From NCBI RefSeq assembly GCF_026013615.1, contig NZ_JAPDPI010000033.1, positions 1-56,334 on the forward strand: a stretch of DNA of 56,334 nucleotides, given 5' to 3'. The notes under the pieces are model-generated. The model was given only the letters and a program-made list of their open reading frames with translations. It was not told the DNA's origin and ran no database searches. This DNA is from Plebeiibacterium marinum (GTDB lineage Bacteria; Bacteroidota; Bacteroidia; Bacteroidales; Marinilabiliaceae). Both the position numbers and the translations under genes were made by a program. Positions 16,055 to 22,959 of this stretch are shown one piece after another (the stretch's first letter is position 1; each line of letters starts with the position of its first letter).

Positions 16055-17731
16055 TTAATTATATCCAGGATTCTGTTCCAATACAGCTCCTATGTTTGCT
16101 TCTATTTCACTTGCTGGGATTGGCCACAGGTTATATGTTTCTGTCATTCCATCAGTCATATCTCTATAGAAAGGATTACACTTTTGAATTCTATCATATA
16201 ATTTACCTAAACGCATTAAGGTCAATCTCCTCTTTTCTTCAACACCAAGCTCTCTCATACGCTCATCTAAAATATATTCAATATTTACATTTTCAGGAGA
16301 TACAGGATTTGCATTGGCTCTAGAGCGTACTTCGTTAATATTAGCAGCAGCTTCTGTAGTTTGTGATAGACCAAGGTATGCTTCTGCTCTTAAAAGATAA
16401 GTCTCGGCCAATCTGAACATATATTGGTCGGTATAAGTAGAACCAGCAACCCCTTTCAATGAATAAGTTTCAGTGTTTGAATATACATTTTCAGGGTGAT
16501 TGTAAGGAGTGGTGCATTTCGATTGATAAGCATAAAATTGTCTGGAAGGAACTTTATCTGCTAAGGCAGGATCTTCAGTAGATACAATTTTTCCATAATG
16601 AGATGAACTTGATTTAGTACTTATAAACTCTCTGACAAAGTTATGATTGGCATTTCTCATATCATTATCAAAATCACTCTCCCAAATAGTATTAGAAAAA
16701 TATTCTGTAGAGATTGCCCATCCAATTCCTCTACCTCCAGAGTAATCACCAACTGGCCAGGAAAAAGGTTTATCATCACCAATTTTTAAATCTCTAACAA
16801 AAGGTCCGTGATGACGTTCTAGCATGAATCCTCTTCTGGATGTAGATAATAAATTGCCTCCTGATACATCTGTTTCAAATTGGATTATCCATATTCCTTC
16901 AGTATTTCCCGATTTACGATTTTGATTATTTACTCGGAATAAGTCCCAATAAACATCTTTATCGGTTTCAGAAGTTCTTGATCCAAACCTATCTTTCATT
17001 AATGCAGTATTAGGATTGTCAATTACCAAAGTTGCAGCATCTACTGCGTCTTGATATTTTCCGACAGAGATATACACTTCTGAAAGTAAATGGTATGCTG
17101 CTAAATTATGTATCTCACCATCATTGACATTGGTTATGGAAGGAAGGTTATTTGCCGCTTCTGTTAAATCTTTAATTACTTGATTTAATACATCTGCTTT
17201 ACTAGCTCTTACAAAATCATCTTTAGGTGTTTTAATTTCGTTTAAAATTAATGGTACACCTCCATATAGGTATGCTAATGTTCTGTATGCTAATCCTCTA
17301 AAGAATAAAGCTTTGGCTTTATATGCTGCTTTATTCGCTTCATCTAATTCAGTATCAGTTATTCTATCTATTACTGTATTAGATTCAGCTACAATTTTAT
17401 ATAGTAATCCCCAATGATCTTTAGCAATTCTACCAGTTGGATCATAAGCTGTTCGCATTGGAGAATGGCGGTTTGCACTTTGCTGTGGTTCGCCATCAAA
17501 TACTATATCTGTTCCATATAAATAATCGAATGGATGATTTTCATCGCGGTCAAAAAATTCTCGACGAGTCAATCCATATAAATTGTTAATTGAAGCATCA
17601 AAGTCATCATTAGTAACAAAAGAGTTTTCCGCACTAAAAAAGTCTTGAGGCTTTTCTTCCAAAAAGTCATCTTCGCAAGAGTTTAAACAGACTATGGAGA
17701 ATAATATAATTAAATATTTAATTTTTTTCAT
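16055..17731 (-). CDS. SusD-family outer-membrane glycan-binding lipoprotein
   Basis: 558 residues. The lipoprotein signal ends at Cys19 (VCLNSC), followed by EDDFLEE, an acidic stretch of the kind that directs lipoproteins to the cell surface in Bacteroidota. Typical SusD/RagB features follow: EKPQDFF at the N-terminus, TPR-like helices (FFRGLAYRTLAYLYGGVPLI) and the C-terminal LLRAEAYLGLSQ with EVRSRAN and DERMRELGVEEKRR. It caps the SusC transporter and binds oligosaccharides at the surface. It lies 13 bp after susC and is surely co-transcribed with it. Confidence 0.97.
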   Translation of the reverse strand: MKKIKYLIILFSIVCLNSCEDDFLEEKPQDFFSAENSFVTNDDFDASINNLYGLTRREFFDRDENHPFDYLYGTDIVFDGEPQQSANRHSPMRTAYDPTGRIAKDHWGLLYKIVAESNTVIDRITDTELDEANKAAYKAKALFFRGLAYRTLAYLYGGVPLILNEIKTPKDDFVRASKADVLNQVIKDLTEAANNLPSITNVNDGEIHNLAAYHLLSEVYISVGKYQDAVDAATLVIDNPNTALMKDRFGSRTSETDKDVYWDLFRVNNQNRKSGNTEGIWIIQFETDVSGGNLLSTSRRGFMLERHHGPFVRDLKIGDDKPFSWPVGDYSGGRGIGWAISTEYFSNTIWESDFDNDMRNANHNFVREFISTKSSSSHYGKIVSTEDPALADKVPSRQFYAYQSKCTTPYNHPENVYSNTETYSLKGVAGSTYTDQYMFRLAETYLLRAEAYLGLSQTTEAAANINEVRSRANANPVSPENVNIEYILDERMRELGVEEKRRLTLMRLGKLYDRIQKCNPFYRDMTDGMTETYNLWPIPASEIEANIGAVLEQNPGYN

Positions 17732-17744
17732 GATGCTACTTTGT

Positions 17745-20700
17745 TTAGAATGTTAAATTGAATCCCAATGAATATCCCTTCATAACAGGTCTTCCTCCTG
17801 TATCTAATCCAGATCCAGTTTCTGGATCCCAACCTTTCCATGAGGTCCATGTGGCTAAGTTCTTTCCATTAACATATATGCTTAAGTCTTTGACATTTAT
17901 TTTATTTAATAGCTTACTAGGCACATAGTACGATAATATAACATCTTGTAATCTTACAAAACTGCGATCGTAATATACCCTTGGAGTTATTGTTGGTGTA
18001 GAAACGGATTGTGGATATTCGCCATTAGGATTACCAGGAGACCAATAGTCAATATCGCTTATGTAATTCCAAATTAATGTATTGGTACCTCTGGAAATTG
18101 CATGTGAATTATTACCCATATATCCATCTTTTCCACCTTGGATTGTATTTAAGAATATGCTTAATGAAAATCTTTTATATTCAAGTTTGTTCATTAAACT
18201 TGCTCGGTATGCTGGTTCTGAGCGACCAAGAATAACTTTGTCATCGGTAGTAATCTCATAGTCACCACCATCCTGATCAACAATTCTATATGTTCCAGCA
18301 TAATAACCTGCAGGTATTTCATCATCAAGTTGATAAATACCATCTACTTCATAATTATAGATAGTACCCAATGATTCGCCAATAAATAGATTACTTGCTA
18401 TTAAATCATCTTCTTTGCCATCTCCATCATTGTCAGCACCAGTGAGCTTAATAATTTTATTTTTGTTTGTAGAAAATGATAAAGTTGTACTCCATTTGAA
18501 ATCTTGTTTGTTAATGTTTCGAGAAGTCAGCATTAGTTCAAATCCGGTATTTTTAAGCTCCCCAATATTTGTACTTATATTATTAAAACCAGACATACTA
18601 GGTAATGCAACATTAAATAAAAGATCATTTGTTTTATTGTTGTAATATTCAATATTACCACTAATGTTACTGTTAACTAGTGAGAAGTCTATACCAAGAT
18701 TAATTCCAGCGGTTTTTTCCCACCTTAAGTCAGAGTTTCCTAAAGATGAAACTTCCTGGCCAATTAAAGTAGTACCACCATCCCCAAAAACATACGAATC
18801 AAAAGTTGACATTCTGGATAACGAATTATATCTACTTGTTTGATTTCCGCTAATTCCATAGCCTCCTCGCAGTTTCAAATATTCAATCCATTGAGGAGTA
18901 TTGATATCTTCAGTGATAACCCATCCTAAAGCAACAGATGGAAAGATGGCGTATTTTTCGTTTTCTGCAAAACCAGAAAATCCATCTCTTCTTACAGTAG
19001 CGGTTAACAAGTATTTATTTTGGAACTTGTAGTTGATTCGAGCCATCTGATAGTTAAGAGCTTCGTCCCAAGCGTCAGAGTATGTATATTGGTTTGTGCC
19101 GAGTTCCAGGCTATTATAGCCTAAATTTAATCTGCTAAATTCATTTGCCATAGCACTTGTGTAGGAGTATTTTCTATCTACAGCTCCATATAACAATGTT
19201 GCAGTTATACTGTTATTGTTAAAATTTCGGTTGTATGTTAAAATATTATCAAACGTGTAATCATAATACTCATTGAAATTCTTGTAAGCTTCTCCTGCCA
19301 TACTAGCACCGTATTCACTTGCATTATACTGCTTGTCTATTCTATAGTTATTACCATAATTAAACCGATATGATAATCCTTTGATAAAAGGGATGTCAAT
19401 TTCGCTATATATGTTTGCAAAAAAGTAATTATGACGTTCGTAATCATCTACTTCACTGCCCATGAAAGGGTTAGTGTCTTGTGTGTTAAATGGATATGGT
19501 ATTATGTCTCCGTTTTCATCATAAGGAACAAGAAGGGGTGATTGGGTCATTAAACGCCAAAGGTTGGGTTCAGCACCATCTTTATTAACGAAAGAACCAA
19601 AACTTTGAACACCTAATTTTAACCATGAAGTAGCCTGAGATTCCAAGTTTATTCTAATACTTTTTCGTTTGAAATCATCATTGATTACATAACCACTTTG
19701 ATCCGTTAAGCCTCCGGAAATCAAATAACTAACTTTATTGCCGCCACCTGCAATACTTAACTGATATTCTTTAATAAAACCGGGATTTGTTCCTTTATCC
19801 CACCAATCATAATCATTTTCTAAAAGTTGACCACTTTCTTCATCAATAAAGACTGATTGAAAATCATCAACAACATCATATTCCGGATCTAATGAGCCAT
19901 CTTCGAGGTAGGCTTTATCCCAATATAAATCTCTAACATGATCGATATATTCTTCTCTGTTCATTGGCCTTAAATCCACAGTTGGAGTTTGAGTTGTATA
20001 TGAGCTTGATAACGTAATCTTAGGTCCTTCACCAATCTTGCCTTTCTTGGTCGTAATTAATATAACACCGTTGGCCGCTTGAGCTCCATAAACAGCAGTT
20101 GAGCTTGCATCTTTTAATACATCAATTGATTCAATGTCATCAGGATTGATTGAAGATAAAGAACTGTTATATGGGACTCCATCTAAAATAATTAGAACAT
20201 TAGAATTACCAGATATTGTACTGGCACCTCTAATTGATATGCTTGGAGTTGATCCCGAACTTGTAACTTGTCCTATATTTAAACCAGGTACTGAGCCCTG
20301 TAAAGATTGTCCTAAATTTGTGTTAGGCGATTTTCTAAAGTCTTGCATGTTTGCACTTACAACAGCACCAGTAAGGTCTGACTTTTTCATAGAACCATAG
20401 CCAATAGCAACAACTTCTTGCAGGTTTATTAGAGAAGATTGCATCTTAATGTTGATATTAGTATTTTCAATTACAACTTCTTGCGATTCCATGCCAATAA
20501 ATGAGAATACCAGAGTGCTGCCTTTTTCAGCATTTAAAATGAAATTGCCATCAATATCAGTAATAGTCCCTGTACTTGTCCCTTTTATAATAACAGAAAC
20601 TCCAGGCATAGATTCACCTTTTTCATCGCTAACTTTTCCTGTAACTGATAGATTTTGTTGCTGAACTTGTGATGTTGGAGAAGTTTTTACTTTTTCTGAA

Positions 20701-21065
20701 TCAACAATGATAATACTATTATCTAGTAATTTAAAATCAACATCTTTATCTGACAAAAGTGTTTTAAGCAAAGTTGCAACCATTTCATCTTCAACTTTTA
20801 TACTAACAATTGCTTGATCATTAATTGTTTTTTTATTGTAGAAGAGGTTGTATTCCGTTTGAGATTCTATTTCATCAAAAACATCAGATAATGTAACATT
20901 AGATAAATCAATGGTTACTCTTTTTACTTGAGAAAGCGATGATTCTGCGTGGATCATAAATGTCGCCAATAATAATAATAGAGCGGAAATTTTCATAACC
21001 CTAATAGGTTTTTTATACCATGGAACTACACTATGGTTCCGTGGTAAACATTCATTTTTTTTCAT
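17745..21065 (-). CDS. SusC-family TonB-dependent transporter with N-terminal STN signalling domain
   Basis: 1106 residues. A long n-region and a hydrophobic segment (about 24-42) form the signal. An STN (secretin/TonB short N-terminal) domain at about 47-117 (VTIDLSNVTLSDVFDEI) is followed by a carboxypeptidase-like domain at about 140-215 (GKVSDEKGESMPGVSV), the plug at about 225-340 (SIRGASTISG, VLKDASSTAVYGAQAANGVI) and the beta-barrel to the C-terminus. It imports oligosaccharides with SusD. The STN domain shows that it can also signal through the adjacent FecR anti-sigma to the ECF sigma factor encoded divergently at 22399. Its 96-bp leader region carries the antisense RNA candidate described separately. 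Confidence 0.97.
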   Translation of the reverse strand: MKKNECLPRNHSVVPWYKKPIRVMKISALLLLLATFMIHAESSLSQVKRVTIDLSNVTLSDVFDEIESQTEYNLFYNKKTINDQAIVSIKVEDEMVATLLKTLLSDKDVDFKLLDNSIIIVDSEKVKTSPTSQVQQQNLSVTGKVSDEKGESMPGVSVIIKGTSTGTITDIDGNFILNAEKGSTLVFSFIGMESQEVVIENTNINIKMQSSLINLQEVVAIGYGSMKKSDLTGAVVSANMQDFRKSPNTNLGQSLQGSVPGLNIGQVTSSGSTPSISIRGASTISGNSNVLIILDGVPYNSSLSSINPDDIESIDVLKDASSTAVYGAQAANGVILITTKKGKIGEGPKITLSSSYTTQTPTVDLRPMNREEYIDHVRDLYWDKAYLEDGSLDPEYDVVDDFQSVFIDEESGQLLENDYDWWDKGTNPGFIKEYQLSIAGGGNKVSYLISGGLTDQSGYVINDDFKRKSIRINLESQATSWLKLGVQSFGSFVNKDGAEPNLWRLMTQSPLLVPYDENGDIIPYPFNTQDTNPFMGSEVDDYERHNYFFANIYSEIDIPFIKGLSYRFNYGNNYRIDKQYNASEYGASMAGEAYKNFNEYYDYTFDNILTYNRNFNNNSITATLLYGAVDRKYSYTSAMANEFSRLNLGYNSLELGTNQYTYSDAWDEALNYQMARINYKFQNKYLLTATVRRDGFSGFAENEKYAIFPSVALGWVITEDINTPQWIEYLKLRGGYGISGNQTSRYNSLSRMSTFDSYVFGDGGTTLIGQEVSSLGNSDLRWEKTAGINLGIDFSLVNSNISGNIEYYNNKTNDLLFNVALPSMSGFNNISTNIGELKNTGFELMLTSRNINKQDFKWSTTLSFSTNKNKIIKLTGADNDGDGKEDDLIASNLFIGESLGTIYNYEVDGIYQLDDEIPAGYYAGTYRIVDQDGGDYEITTDDKVILGRSEPAYRASLMNKLEYKRFSLSIFLNTIQGGKDGYMGNNSHAISRGTNTLIWNYISDIDYWSPGNPNGEYPQSVSTPTITPRVYYDRSFVRLQDVILSYYVPSKLLNKINVKDLSIYVNGKNLATWTSWKGWDPETGSGLDTGGRPVMKGYSLGFNLTF

Positions 21066-21072
21066 AAATTTG
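21065..21072 (+). promoter_or_regulatory. -7 box (TAAATTTG) facing away from susC
   Basis: A perfect TAnnTTTG match on the plus strand that overlaps the susC start codon. There is no convincing -33 TTTG. It would start a plus-strand RNA near 21078, antisense to the susC leader. Confidence 0.4.
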
Positions 21073-21077
21073 TAATG

Positions 21078-21163
21078 TTTACTGTGATTAAATATGTCTG
21101 TCGTCGGAAAACAGACTGTTTACTAAGTATTTTAGGGGTCAGTGGTAGCTGACTCCTTTTTTT
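21078..21163 (+). ncRNA. Candidate antisense small RNA opposite the susC leader
   Basis: Plus strand, about 86 nt, between susC and fecR, which are both minus strand. It starts 5-6 nt after a perfect -7 box. It contains hairpin 1 (gtctgt 21096-21101 / acagac 21111-21116) and a 3' hairpin (aggggtcag 21134-21142 / ctgactcct 21149-21157) followed by a T run to 21163. The single non-Watson-Crick position in the terminal stem is G-U in plus-strand RNA but would be A-C in minus-strand RNA, and the minus strand has no T tail. The terminator therefore works only in the antisense direction. Bacteroides PULs are known to carry cis-encoded antisense sRNAs at this position that repress susC homologues. 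Transcription here is unproven. Confidence 0.5.
21134..21163 (+). terminator. Plus-strand intrinsic terminator between fecR and susC
   Basis: A 9-bp stem including one G-U pair, a 6-nt loop and seven Ts (21157-21163). It lies where no plus-strand protein gene exists upstream, which is what suggests an antisense transcript. Confidence 0.65.
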
Positions 21164-22136
21164 ATTTCTGTATTAATACGATTTGTTTATCATCTATTGT
21201 ATATTCTATATTCGTTGATAATTGTAATATTTCAAGTGTTTTAAAGATCGAATTTTCTGTATCAAAGGTTCCTCTGTACCTATAATTTTTAATAGAATCA
21301 GAAGCAAACTTTATCTTGATGTCATAAACCTTTTCAAGTTGTCGTGCAATGTTGAGTAATGATTCGTCTTTAAATCTAATTTTGCCAAGATGCCAGGAGG
21401 TGTAAAGCTTTGTGTCAACTTCAAGTACTTCCATTTTTTCTTTAGAGACAATGGTTTGCATGCCAGGGTTTAGTATTTTTTCTTCAGAACCCCGCACCGT
21501 TTTAATGCGGCCTTCTTCAAGTGTCACAATGATTTTGTCGTTATTATCATGCGATTTAACATTAAAGCTAGTTCCTAATGCAGTTACTTTAACATCATTT
21601 GCTGCAACAATAAAGGGATGTTGTTTGTCTTTCTTGACATCAAAAAAACCTTCCCCTTGAAGTTTTACTGTTCGGGTGTTTTGTCCGTATTTTGAGGAAT
21701 AGGTTAAGGAGCTACCGGAGTTTAACCATACCATTGTACCATCAGGAAGTGAAATTTGAGAGGACTGCTTTACTGGAGCATTTACAGTATAAATATGTTC
21801 TTTCTCAAATAATCCGACTGATCCGGAATACCAAGCGCCAACACTTATTGTTATGAATATAATAGCTGCAGCAGCATATTTTAAATAGCGAGTAATAAAA
21901 CTATTCGTCTTATTCTTGTTCTCTTTTATGTTTATACTATGGTGAATACGGTCAAGCACAAGATTACTTTCTTTTGAGTTATTTTCTGCTTGAACTATTG
22001 TAGTTTCTTTCCATAATTTTTCAAGGGCGTATTGAAGTTCTGCAGATATCTTTTCATTTGTTAATGCATCTTCAATTTGCTTTTTTTCTGAAGCACTACA
22101 ATTACCTTCTATATATTTCTTTAATAGTAATTTCAT
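21162..22136 (-). CDS. FecR-family anti-sigma factor
   Basis: 324 residues. The N-terminal cytoplasmic helical part (1-80) contains the sigma-binding region, with one transmembrane segment at about 86-105 (YAAAAIIFITISVGAWY). The periplasmic FecR domain is at about 115-215 (LPDGTMVWLNSGSSLTYSSKY and GEGFFDVKKDKQHPFIV), and the C-terminal DUF4974-like part (about 250-324, IRFKDESLLNIARQLEKVY) contacts the STN domain of the transporter in this family. It holds the ECF sigma factor inactive until SusC signals substrate. It lies upstream of susC in the same direction (96-bp gap) and diverges from the sigma gene. Confidence 0.95.
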   Translation of the reverse strand: MKLLLKKYIEGNCSASEKKQIEDALTNEKISAELQYALEKLWKETTIVQAENNSKESNLVLDRIHHSINIKENKNKTNSFITRYLKYAAAAIIFITISVGAWYSGSVGLFEKEHIYTVNAPVKQSSQISLPDGTMVWLNSGSSLTYSSKYGQNTRTVKLQGEGFFDVKKDKQHPFIVAANDVKVTALGTSFNVKSHDNNDKIIVTLEEGRIKTVRGSEEKILNPGMQTIVSKEKMEVLEVDTKLYTSWHLGKIRFKDESLLNIARQLEKVYDIKIKFASDSIKNYRYRGTFDTENSIFKTLEILQLSTNIEYTIDDKQIVLIQK

Positions 22137-22398: not shown

Positions 22399-22959
22399 AT
22401 GAAATTATTCACTGATGAAATATTAATAAAAGGACTTAAACGTGGTGAGAAAATATATATAGATCGTATATATCATTCTTATTCGAACAGGATCTTTGGT
22501 TTTGCACTGTCGTTATTAAAAGACAGAGAGGAATCTTATGATGTTGTACATGATGTGTTCTTAAGTTTATGGGAAAAAAGGCATACATTAAAAGATGATA
22601 CAAAACTGGAAGCTATTTTGTTTACTATGACAAGAAACAAAGTATTGTCATTTTTTAGAAAGAAGGATTCTGAGAGAAAGTATATTAATGAATTATTGAC
22701 TAAAGATGATAATCGCAAAAATGATTCAACAGAGCAAGATGTATCTTTTATTTTTTTAACAGAAAAAATAGAATATTTCCTATCGAAAATGCCTCAAAAA
22801 AGAAGAGATGTGTTTATGCTTTCACGAAATAAAGGAATGTCAAATAAAGAGATTGCACAAAAATTGAGTATTTCAGAGAAAACAGTTGAAGATCATATAA
22901 CAAGGGCACTTGCATTCTTCAGGAAAAACATTAATTCAATAAAAAATATTTTGTTGTAA
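22399..22959 (+). CDS. ECF RNA polymerase sigma factor
   Basis: 186 residues. Region 2 spans about 20-90 (HSYSNRIFGFALSLLKDREESYDVVHDVFLSLWE) and region 4 about 125-178 (LSKMPQKRRDVFMLSRNKGMSNKEIAQKLSISEKTVEDHI), with the helix-turn-helix. This is the Bacteroidota FecI-like type that pairs with FecR and an STN-bearing SusC. It probably drives susC and some or all of the locus. It is encoded divergently from fecR across a 262-bp gap instead of in line with it, so sigma and anti-sigma are on separate transcripts. No other transcription regulator is present in the window. Confidence 0.95.
   Translation: MKLFTDEILIKGLKRGEKIYIDRIYHSYSNRIFGFALSLLKDREESYDVVHDVFLSLWEKRHTLKDDTKLEAILFTMTRNKVLSFFRKKDSERKYINELLTKDDNRKNDSTEQDVSFIFLTEKIEYFLSKMPQKRRDVFMLSRNKGMSNKEIAQKLSISEKTVEDHITRALAFFRKNINSIKNILL

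Follow-up and report, generated by a model that had tools for sequence, protein, structure and literature searches.

The 96-bp gap between fecR and susC in the window, the 56,334-nt stretch of Plebeiibacterium marinum DNA analysed here, probably encodes a cis-antisense small RNA of approximately 87 nt, which would most likely pair with the leader of susC and lower SusC and SusD. The promoter box, the terminator and the direction of this RNA are supported by the sequence and by its conservation in relatives. By analogy with antisense RNAs already described, we infer that the RNA would be expressed, would pair in the cell and would repress susC. Taken as a whole, the antisense interpretation is supported, with conservation in its favor.

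The gap lies between the end of fecR (21162) and the ATG of susC (21065), and the Pfam domains bear out the ECF sigma and FecR genes that the initial annotation had recognized beside susC (Table 1). The transporter had been described as an STN transporter; it is a TonB-dependent SusC, but its STN match falls under the Pfam cut-off (25.8 versus 28.4 bits). The locus had also been linked to pectic glycans. Nothing found indicates pectin, and the neighboring enzymes that were scanned belong to GH115, GH43, and GH2. The sigma gene of the window is divergent from fecR. Gene order was compared in 12 relatives: in 11 of them a sigma-sized ORF, identified by its size only, lies upstream of fecR and is co-directional with it, and the remaining one is cut by the contig end.

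Table 1. Genes and predicted RNA signals at the fecR-susC locus, in positions of the window.
Feature	Positions	Strand	Remarks
susD homologue	16055..17731	-	SusD domains (Pfam)
susC homologue	17745..21065	-	presumed target; Plug, carboxypeptidase-regulatory-like and TonB-dependent barrel domains (Pfam)
-7 box TAAATTTG (TAnnTTTG), predicted antisense promoter	21065..21072	+	first T stands opposite the A of the susC ATG
predicted antisense RNA (~87 nt) with complementarity to the susC leader	21077..21163	+	start predicted from the box
hairpin 1, GTCTGT/ACAGAC stem	21096..21116	+	sequence, fold
intrinsic terminator (stem-loop 21134-21157, T7 21157-21163)	21134..21163	+	sequence, fold, comparative counts
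fecR anti-sigma factor	21162..22136	-	FecR and FecR_C (Pfam)
ECF sigma factor	22399..22959	+	divergent from fecR; Sigma-70 ECF protein (Pfam)

The -7 box, the first hairpin, and the intrinsic terminator with its T7 tail are all found on the plus strand, where they had been proposed. According to the available excerpts of PMC7366714, promoters of the primary sigma factor in Bacteroidota have TAnnTTTG as their -7 consensus, and Flavobacterium johnsoniae yielded no -33 motif; for Flavobacterium psychrophilum, excerpts of PMC9723704 place the -7 box at -12 to -5. With the box at this distance, the RNA would therefore start at 21077 and be 87 nt long, one nucleotide more than the approximately 86 nt of the initial annotation. 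The RNA had been taken as antisense to the whole susC leader. The predicted complementarity does cover the leader from the fecR stop onwards, but its 5' end would fall about 12 nt upstream of the AUG. No -33 (TTTG) element could be recognized in the window, nor in a 60-sequence profile drawn from the 65 terminator-bearing gaps of two groups, in which only the last T, the G, the two nn positions, and the +1 are informative because the pattern used to select the box fixed TA and the first two T. The two nn positions of the box are variable, as in a -7 box.

One pair of the terminator stem is a G-U on the plus strand and an A-C on the minus strand, which also has no T tail, as had been noted from the sequence; the direction at the window is given by the T tail together with this asymmetry. 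The 87-nt plus-strand RNA folds with -26.7 kcal/mol (z -3.88), and the complementary strand, with -18.1 kcal/mol (z -4.06), also folds better than its shuffles. Given that both strands fold well, the folding z-scores alone give no direction. Three terminator-like sites were found on both strands of 1.2 kb, versus a mean of 0.5 in shuffles; hairpin 1, when read on the minus strand, accounts for one of these sites. A search of Rfam gave no match in the window at the gathering score, and at a lax threshold (E up to 5), ten loci gave just sub-threshold hits to unrelated families.

Conservation of the terminator stem and of the -7 box in close homologues, on which the proposal had been staked, can be followed in a single ortholog, L002, the only one among the 60 relatives searched with the window sequence. 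This locus, from a genome of the same genus (G003), is 81% identical to the window over 494 bases and retains the -7 box with the region that follows it, as well as the terminator and its T7. Among the 16 stem pairs, 11 are unchanged, 2 have changes on both sides, 2 have a change on one side, and 1 is unpaired. In hairpin 1, two pairs are compensatory and one is broken; the two one-sided changes are in the terminator stem. The test of pair conservation against shuffles gave 129/500 and has no statistical power because only two sequences are compared.

For a wider comparison, fecR-susC gaps were gathered downstream of FecR_C hits, blind to RNA signals. This gave 155 loci, of which 149 had a usable downstream ORF (L068, L082, L128, L142, L146, and L157 were dropped). 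They come from the genus of the window (69, of which 17 in its own genome), Maribellus maritimus (25), Dyadobacter endophyticus (15), Sphingobacterium alkalisoli (15), Chitinophaga costaii (13), Bacteroides pyogenes (9), and Bacteroidetes GWF2_33_16 (3). FecR_C hits in open frames longer than 800 aa, which are STN domains of SusC, were not counted as fecR, and the set excludes four genus matches that were weak and one from B. pyogenes that lies at a contig edge. Genomes G061 and G063-G065 contribute their best-scoring matches only; for Maribellus maritimus (G061), these are the best 25 of 73 FecR_C matches, a count that includes the STN domains of SusC.

Terminators of -6 kcal/mol or lower were found in 115/149 gaps on the antisense strand and in 20/149 on the sense strand, versus 109/447 and 21/447 in shuffles. 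At the stricter cut-off of -9 kcal/mol, the antisense strand has a terminator in 103 gaps, the sense strand in 9, and both strands in 5 of the 149. By group, strict antisense terminators occur in 41/69 gaps of the genus, 24/25 of Maribellus maritimus (best 25 of 73 matches), 12/15 of Dyadobacter, 12/15 of Sphingobacterium, 11/13 of Chitinophaga, 3/9 of B. pyogenes, and 0/3 of GWF2_33_16. Maribellus, Chitinophaga, Dyadobacter, and Sphingobacterium belong to four different classes of Bacteroidota.

The promoter box goes together with the terminator. TAnnTTTG is present between -30 and +80 of the ATG in 73 of the 103 gaps with a terminator versus 4 of the 46 without (p 3e-13), and the CAAANNTATG form of the box in 67/103 versus 3/46. 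At the starts of 229 control ORFs, all taken, like the control terminators, from one genome of the same genus (G003), CAAANNTATG was not found, and the looser TAnnTTTG box occurs between -30 and +80 in 21/229. In the 67 loci that have both box and terminator, the predicted +1 is a G in 37, versus 43/335 at adjacent positions, and the median predicted length of the RNA is 85 nt, two of the 67 estimates (L120, L121) being negative due to mis-chosen hairpins. Three loci of Sphingobacterium alkalisoli (L185, L188, and L192) have the box in a shifted register, with the ATG inside it (CAAATGTA) and the antisense TAnnTTTG kept. The SusC proteins of terminator-bearing loci frequently have approximately 20 extra N-terminal residues (MKKN/MKKK ...) ahead of a second Met and of the signal-peptide core. 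This extension, which corresponds to 20997-21065 on the minus strand of the window, is absent at several terminator-less loci, as judged by eye and uncounted.

The direction of the RNA was also evaluated with inverted repeats defined by Watson-Crick pairs only, in which a G-U on the antisense strand is an A-C on the sense strand. This strand-neutral test covers 141 of the 149 gaps, the other 8 being too short. Flanked mismatches amount to 103 G-U and 12 A-C, namely 92:7 in gaps with a terminator and 11:5 in those without, and five shuffles of the terminator gaps gave 83:71. An earlier count of 136:12, for which the terminators had been chosen by antisense folding, was circular; it was therefore set aside and replaced by the strand-neutral one. 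The strand-neutral hairpins retain the G-U pairs of the antisense RNA and not those of the sense RNA, and the tests support the antisense strand.

A second set was drawn from ten genomes that belong to other genera of the same family and comprises 86 gaps (3 of 89 were lost: L264, L267, and L308). Eight of these ten genomes were picked via similarity hits to the window sequence, and 20 of the 86 gaps are among those hits, so that counts are also given after their exclusion. Terminators of -9 kcal/mol or lower occur in 62/86 gaps on the antisense strand versus 6/86 on the sense strand (12/258 and 2/258 in shuffles), and in 43/66 and 6/66 after exclusion. The CAAANNTATG box is found in 54/62 gaps with a terminator versus 6/24 without (35/43 versus 5/23 after exclusion), the predicted +1 is a G in 35/54 (18/35), and the ratio of G-U to A-C is 51:10 (34:6). 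The median predicted length, over 54 loci, is 80 nt. The comparison across relatives that had been suggested for this gap finds the antisense layout in the majority of the fecR-susC gaps compared, which come from 25 genomes.

The 5.6-Mb genome of the organism itself contains 21 sites matching TTTCATANNTTTG and 25 matching the reversed pattern. Ten of the 21 sites belong to fecR-susC gaps. Each of these ten has, within 330 nt, an antisense terminator of -9 or lower, versus none of the 11 other sites. Of the 17 fecR-susC gaps of this genome, 13 are candidates and 4 have no antisense terminator at the strict cut-off. The duplex of the window RNA with its cognate leader has a predicted energy of -158.5 kcal/mol, versus -45.1 for the strongest of the 16 non-cognate leaders, to any of which the longest exact match is 12 nt in an A-rich tract.

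In the proposed mechanism, an RNA of approximately 87 nt would be made from a promoter of the primary-sigma type (TAnnTTTG), with a -7 box that reaches into the start codon of susC, and its transcription would stop at the intrinsic terminator that sits at the fecR 3' end. The RNA would be complementary to the 5' leader of susC, from the fecR stop as far as a point about 12 nt short of the AUG. Its most likely action, by analogy with DonS, would be a pairing with the leader that hinders the entry of the ribosome or destabilizes the message. The synthesis of SusC and SusD would be lowered while the ECF sigma/FecR switch is off, and sigma-driven sense transcription would then outweigh the antisense RNA.

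The main rival to leader pairing is transcriptional interference, and repression is predicted by both. The antisense polymerase at the susC start would here block the sense polymerase or collide with it, leaving the RNA as a by-product, and the promoter box does overlap the start codon, in an orientation that opposes the sense polymerase. In the hairpins, the G-U excess suggests a role for the structure of the antisense RNA itself; the terminator alone could explain part of this bias. Interference is considered unlikely. The terminator might also merely halt antisense read-through from susC into fecR, with no dedicated short RNA being made. Its location at the fecR stop codon, facing antisense transcripts, is consistent with such a role, but a promoter box lies shortly upstream and co-occurs with the terminator, and G is over-represented at the predicted +1, which makes simple insulation quite improbable.

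Very unlikely as well is a trans-acting sRNA that represses several susC mRNAs in the manner of FopS. FopS RNAs bind susC start regions, as stated in the available part of PMC11697453, and the sequence around the start is common to paralogues; the window RNA, however, would have its 5' end about 12 nt short of the AUG, and its longest non-cognate match is the A-rich one of 12 nt. The least probable reading assigns the signals to the sense strand, with the start-codon motif as a translation signal and the hairpins giving structure to the susC leader or ending the fecR message. The sense strand does fold well (z -4.06), and it was the context of the start codon that the similarity search first found. 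Against this, the T tails and the G-U/A-C asymmetry favor the antisense strand, the motif is at 0/229 control starts, the box is present in only 4/46 terminator-less fecR-susC gaps, and its register is shifted over the ATG in the three Sphingobacterium loci.

The statement that cis-antisense RNAs opposite susC are known from Bacteroides PULs agrees with the excerpts available (PMC7366714, PMC10994844). These describe DonS and, in B. thetaiotaomicron, ten, later 32, PUL-associated antisense RNAs; the length given is 78-128 nt (PMC7366714). For DonS, repression is reported and the mechanism is given as unknown in the available text of PMC11697453. Some pairs of antisense RNA and PUL correlate positively according to excerpts of PMC10994844, and repression is therefore not given for each pair. 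The window RNA, on its predicted features, is a new DonS-like PUL antisense RNA, of a kind already known from Bacteroides. It would share with that group its place on the strand opposite a susC homologue, at the susC 5' side, its length (approximately 87 nt), its presumed repression of susC, and its own promoter and terminator, predicted from the sequence, with a -7 box and no -33 element. It differs in that its host is outside the Bacteroides loci described and in that it is predicted from DNA alone. The predicted layout is also present in genomes of Chitinophaga, Dyadobacter, and Sphingobacterium. The FopS RNAs of B. thetaiotaomicron are likewise small RNAs with canonical primary-sigma promoters that act on susC translation starts, and 4 of the 14 count as antisense RNAs. 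They are described, however, as trans-acting RNAs of ~65-70 nt with a shared 5' seed, R1' (all from excerpts of PMC11697453), whereas the window RNA would have full complementarity in cis and little shared sequence. Among the matches listed from the open-licence literature, no title or abstract opening mentions an overlap of an antisense promoter with the start codon, or antisense RNAs of this type from the FecR-SusC loci in Chitinophaga, Dyadobacter, Sphingobacterium, or Prolixibacteraceae.

A minority of the relatives have twin loops: a locus-specific loop sequence on hairpin 1 recurs on the terminator hairpin although the two stems are unrelated, as in GTTGGCGC, GTTAGCGC, GTACCACC, GTTGGAGC, and GTTCCAGC. 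Such loci, in relatives and in the own genome, are L244, L245, L260, L271, L275, L293, L316, L039, and L069. The window RNA is without twin loops, its loops being CGTCGGAAA and TGGTAG. Shared loop runs of at least 6 bases occur in 8/73 two-hairpin RNAs of the first set, versus 1.7 by within-group permutation (p 0.0002), and in 12/47 of the second set versus 4.5 expected (0/5000 permutations). Given that the idea came from the first set and three further loci, only the second set without the window-similar gaps is a fresh test, and there 6/34 were found versus 2.1 (p 0.0006). In 12 twin-loop loci, 23 of the 26 exact loop hits are in the two hairpins and 3 elsewhere; a partner within up to ~7 kb was not found by exact loop matches at these loci. 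No complementarity between the two loops of one RNA is apparent (mean 3.14 versus 3.13). The sequence GTTGNNGC is commoner in antisense terminators (16/103 in the first set, 17/62 in the second) than in terminators of the single control genome (5/428). Counted with its reverse complement, it is found in 16/41 terminators of the genus, 3/11 of Chitinophaga, 2/24 of Maribellus, 1/12 of Dyadobacter, 0/12 of Sphingobacterium, and 0/3 of Bacteroides, the enrichment not being in all groups.

Regulation of the ferric-citrate type places an ECF sigma factor (FecI) and FecR beside a TonB-dependent receptor. The window resembles this system in having genes for an ECF sigma factor and FecR adjacent to such a receptor, and differs from it by the predicted additional layer of an antisense RNA and by the sigma gene being divergent from fecR. 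It is conceivable, although doubtful, that antisense RNAs with a promoter within the start codon are standard in the FecR-SusC cassette across Bacteroidota, and that the twin loops of a subset serve as a locus-specific address tag for an RNA or protein partner. The twin-loop subset would offer a handle on how paralogous antisense RNAs might remain distinct. A TAnnTTTG over the start codon together with an antisense terminator near the end of fecR gives a rule by which such RNAs may be annotated from DNA alone. PUL antisense RNAs have so far been studied in Bacteroides, and the present counts suggest that, in several environmental Bacteroidota, most SusC genes under FecR control have the same device. 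The recurrence of this layout before many such genes indicates that it may be a common off-switch for sugar uptake.
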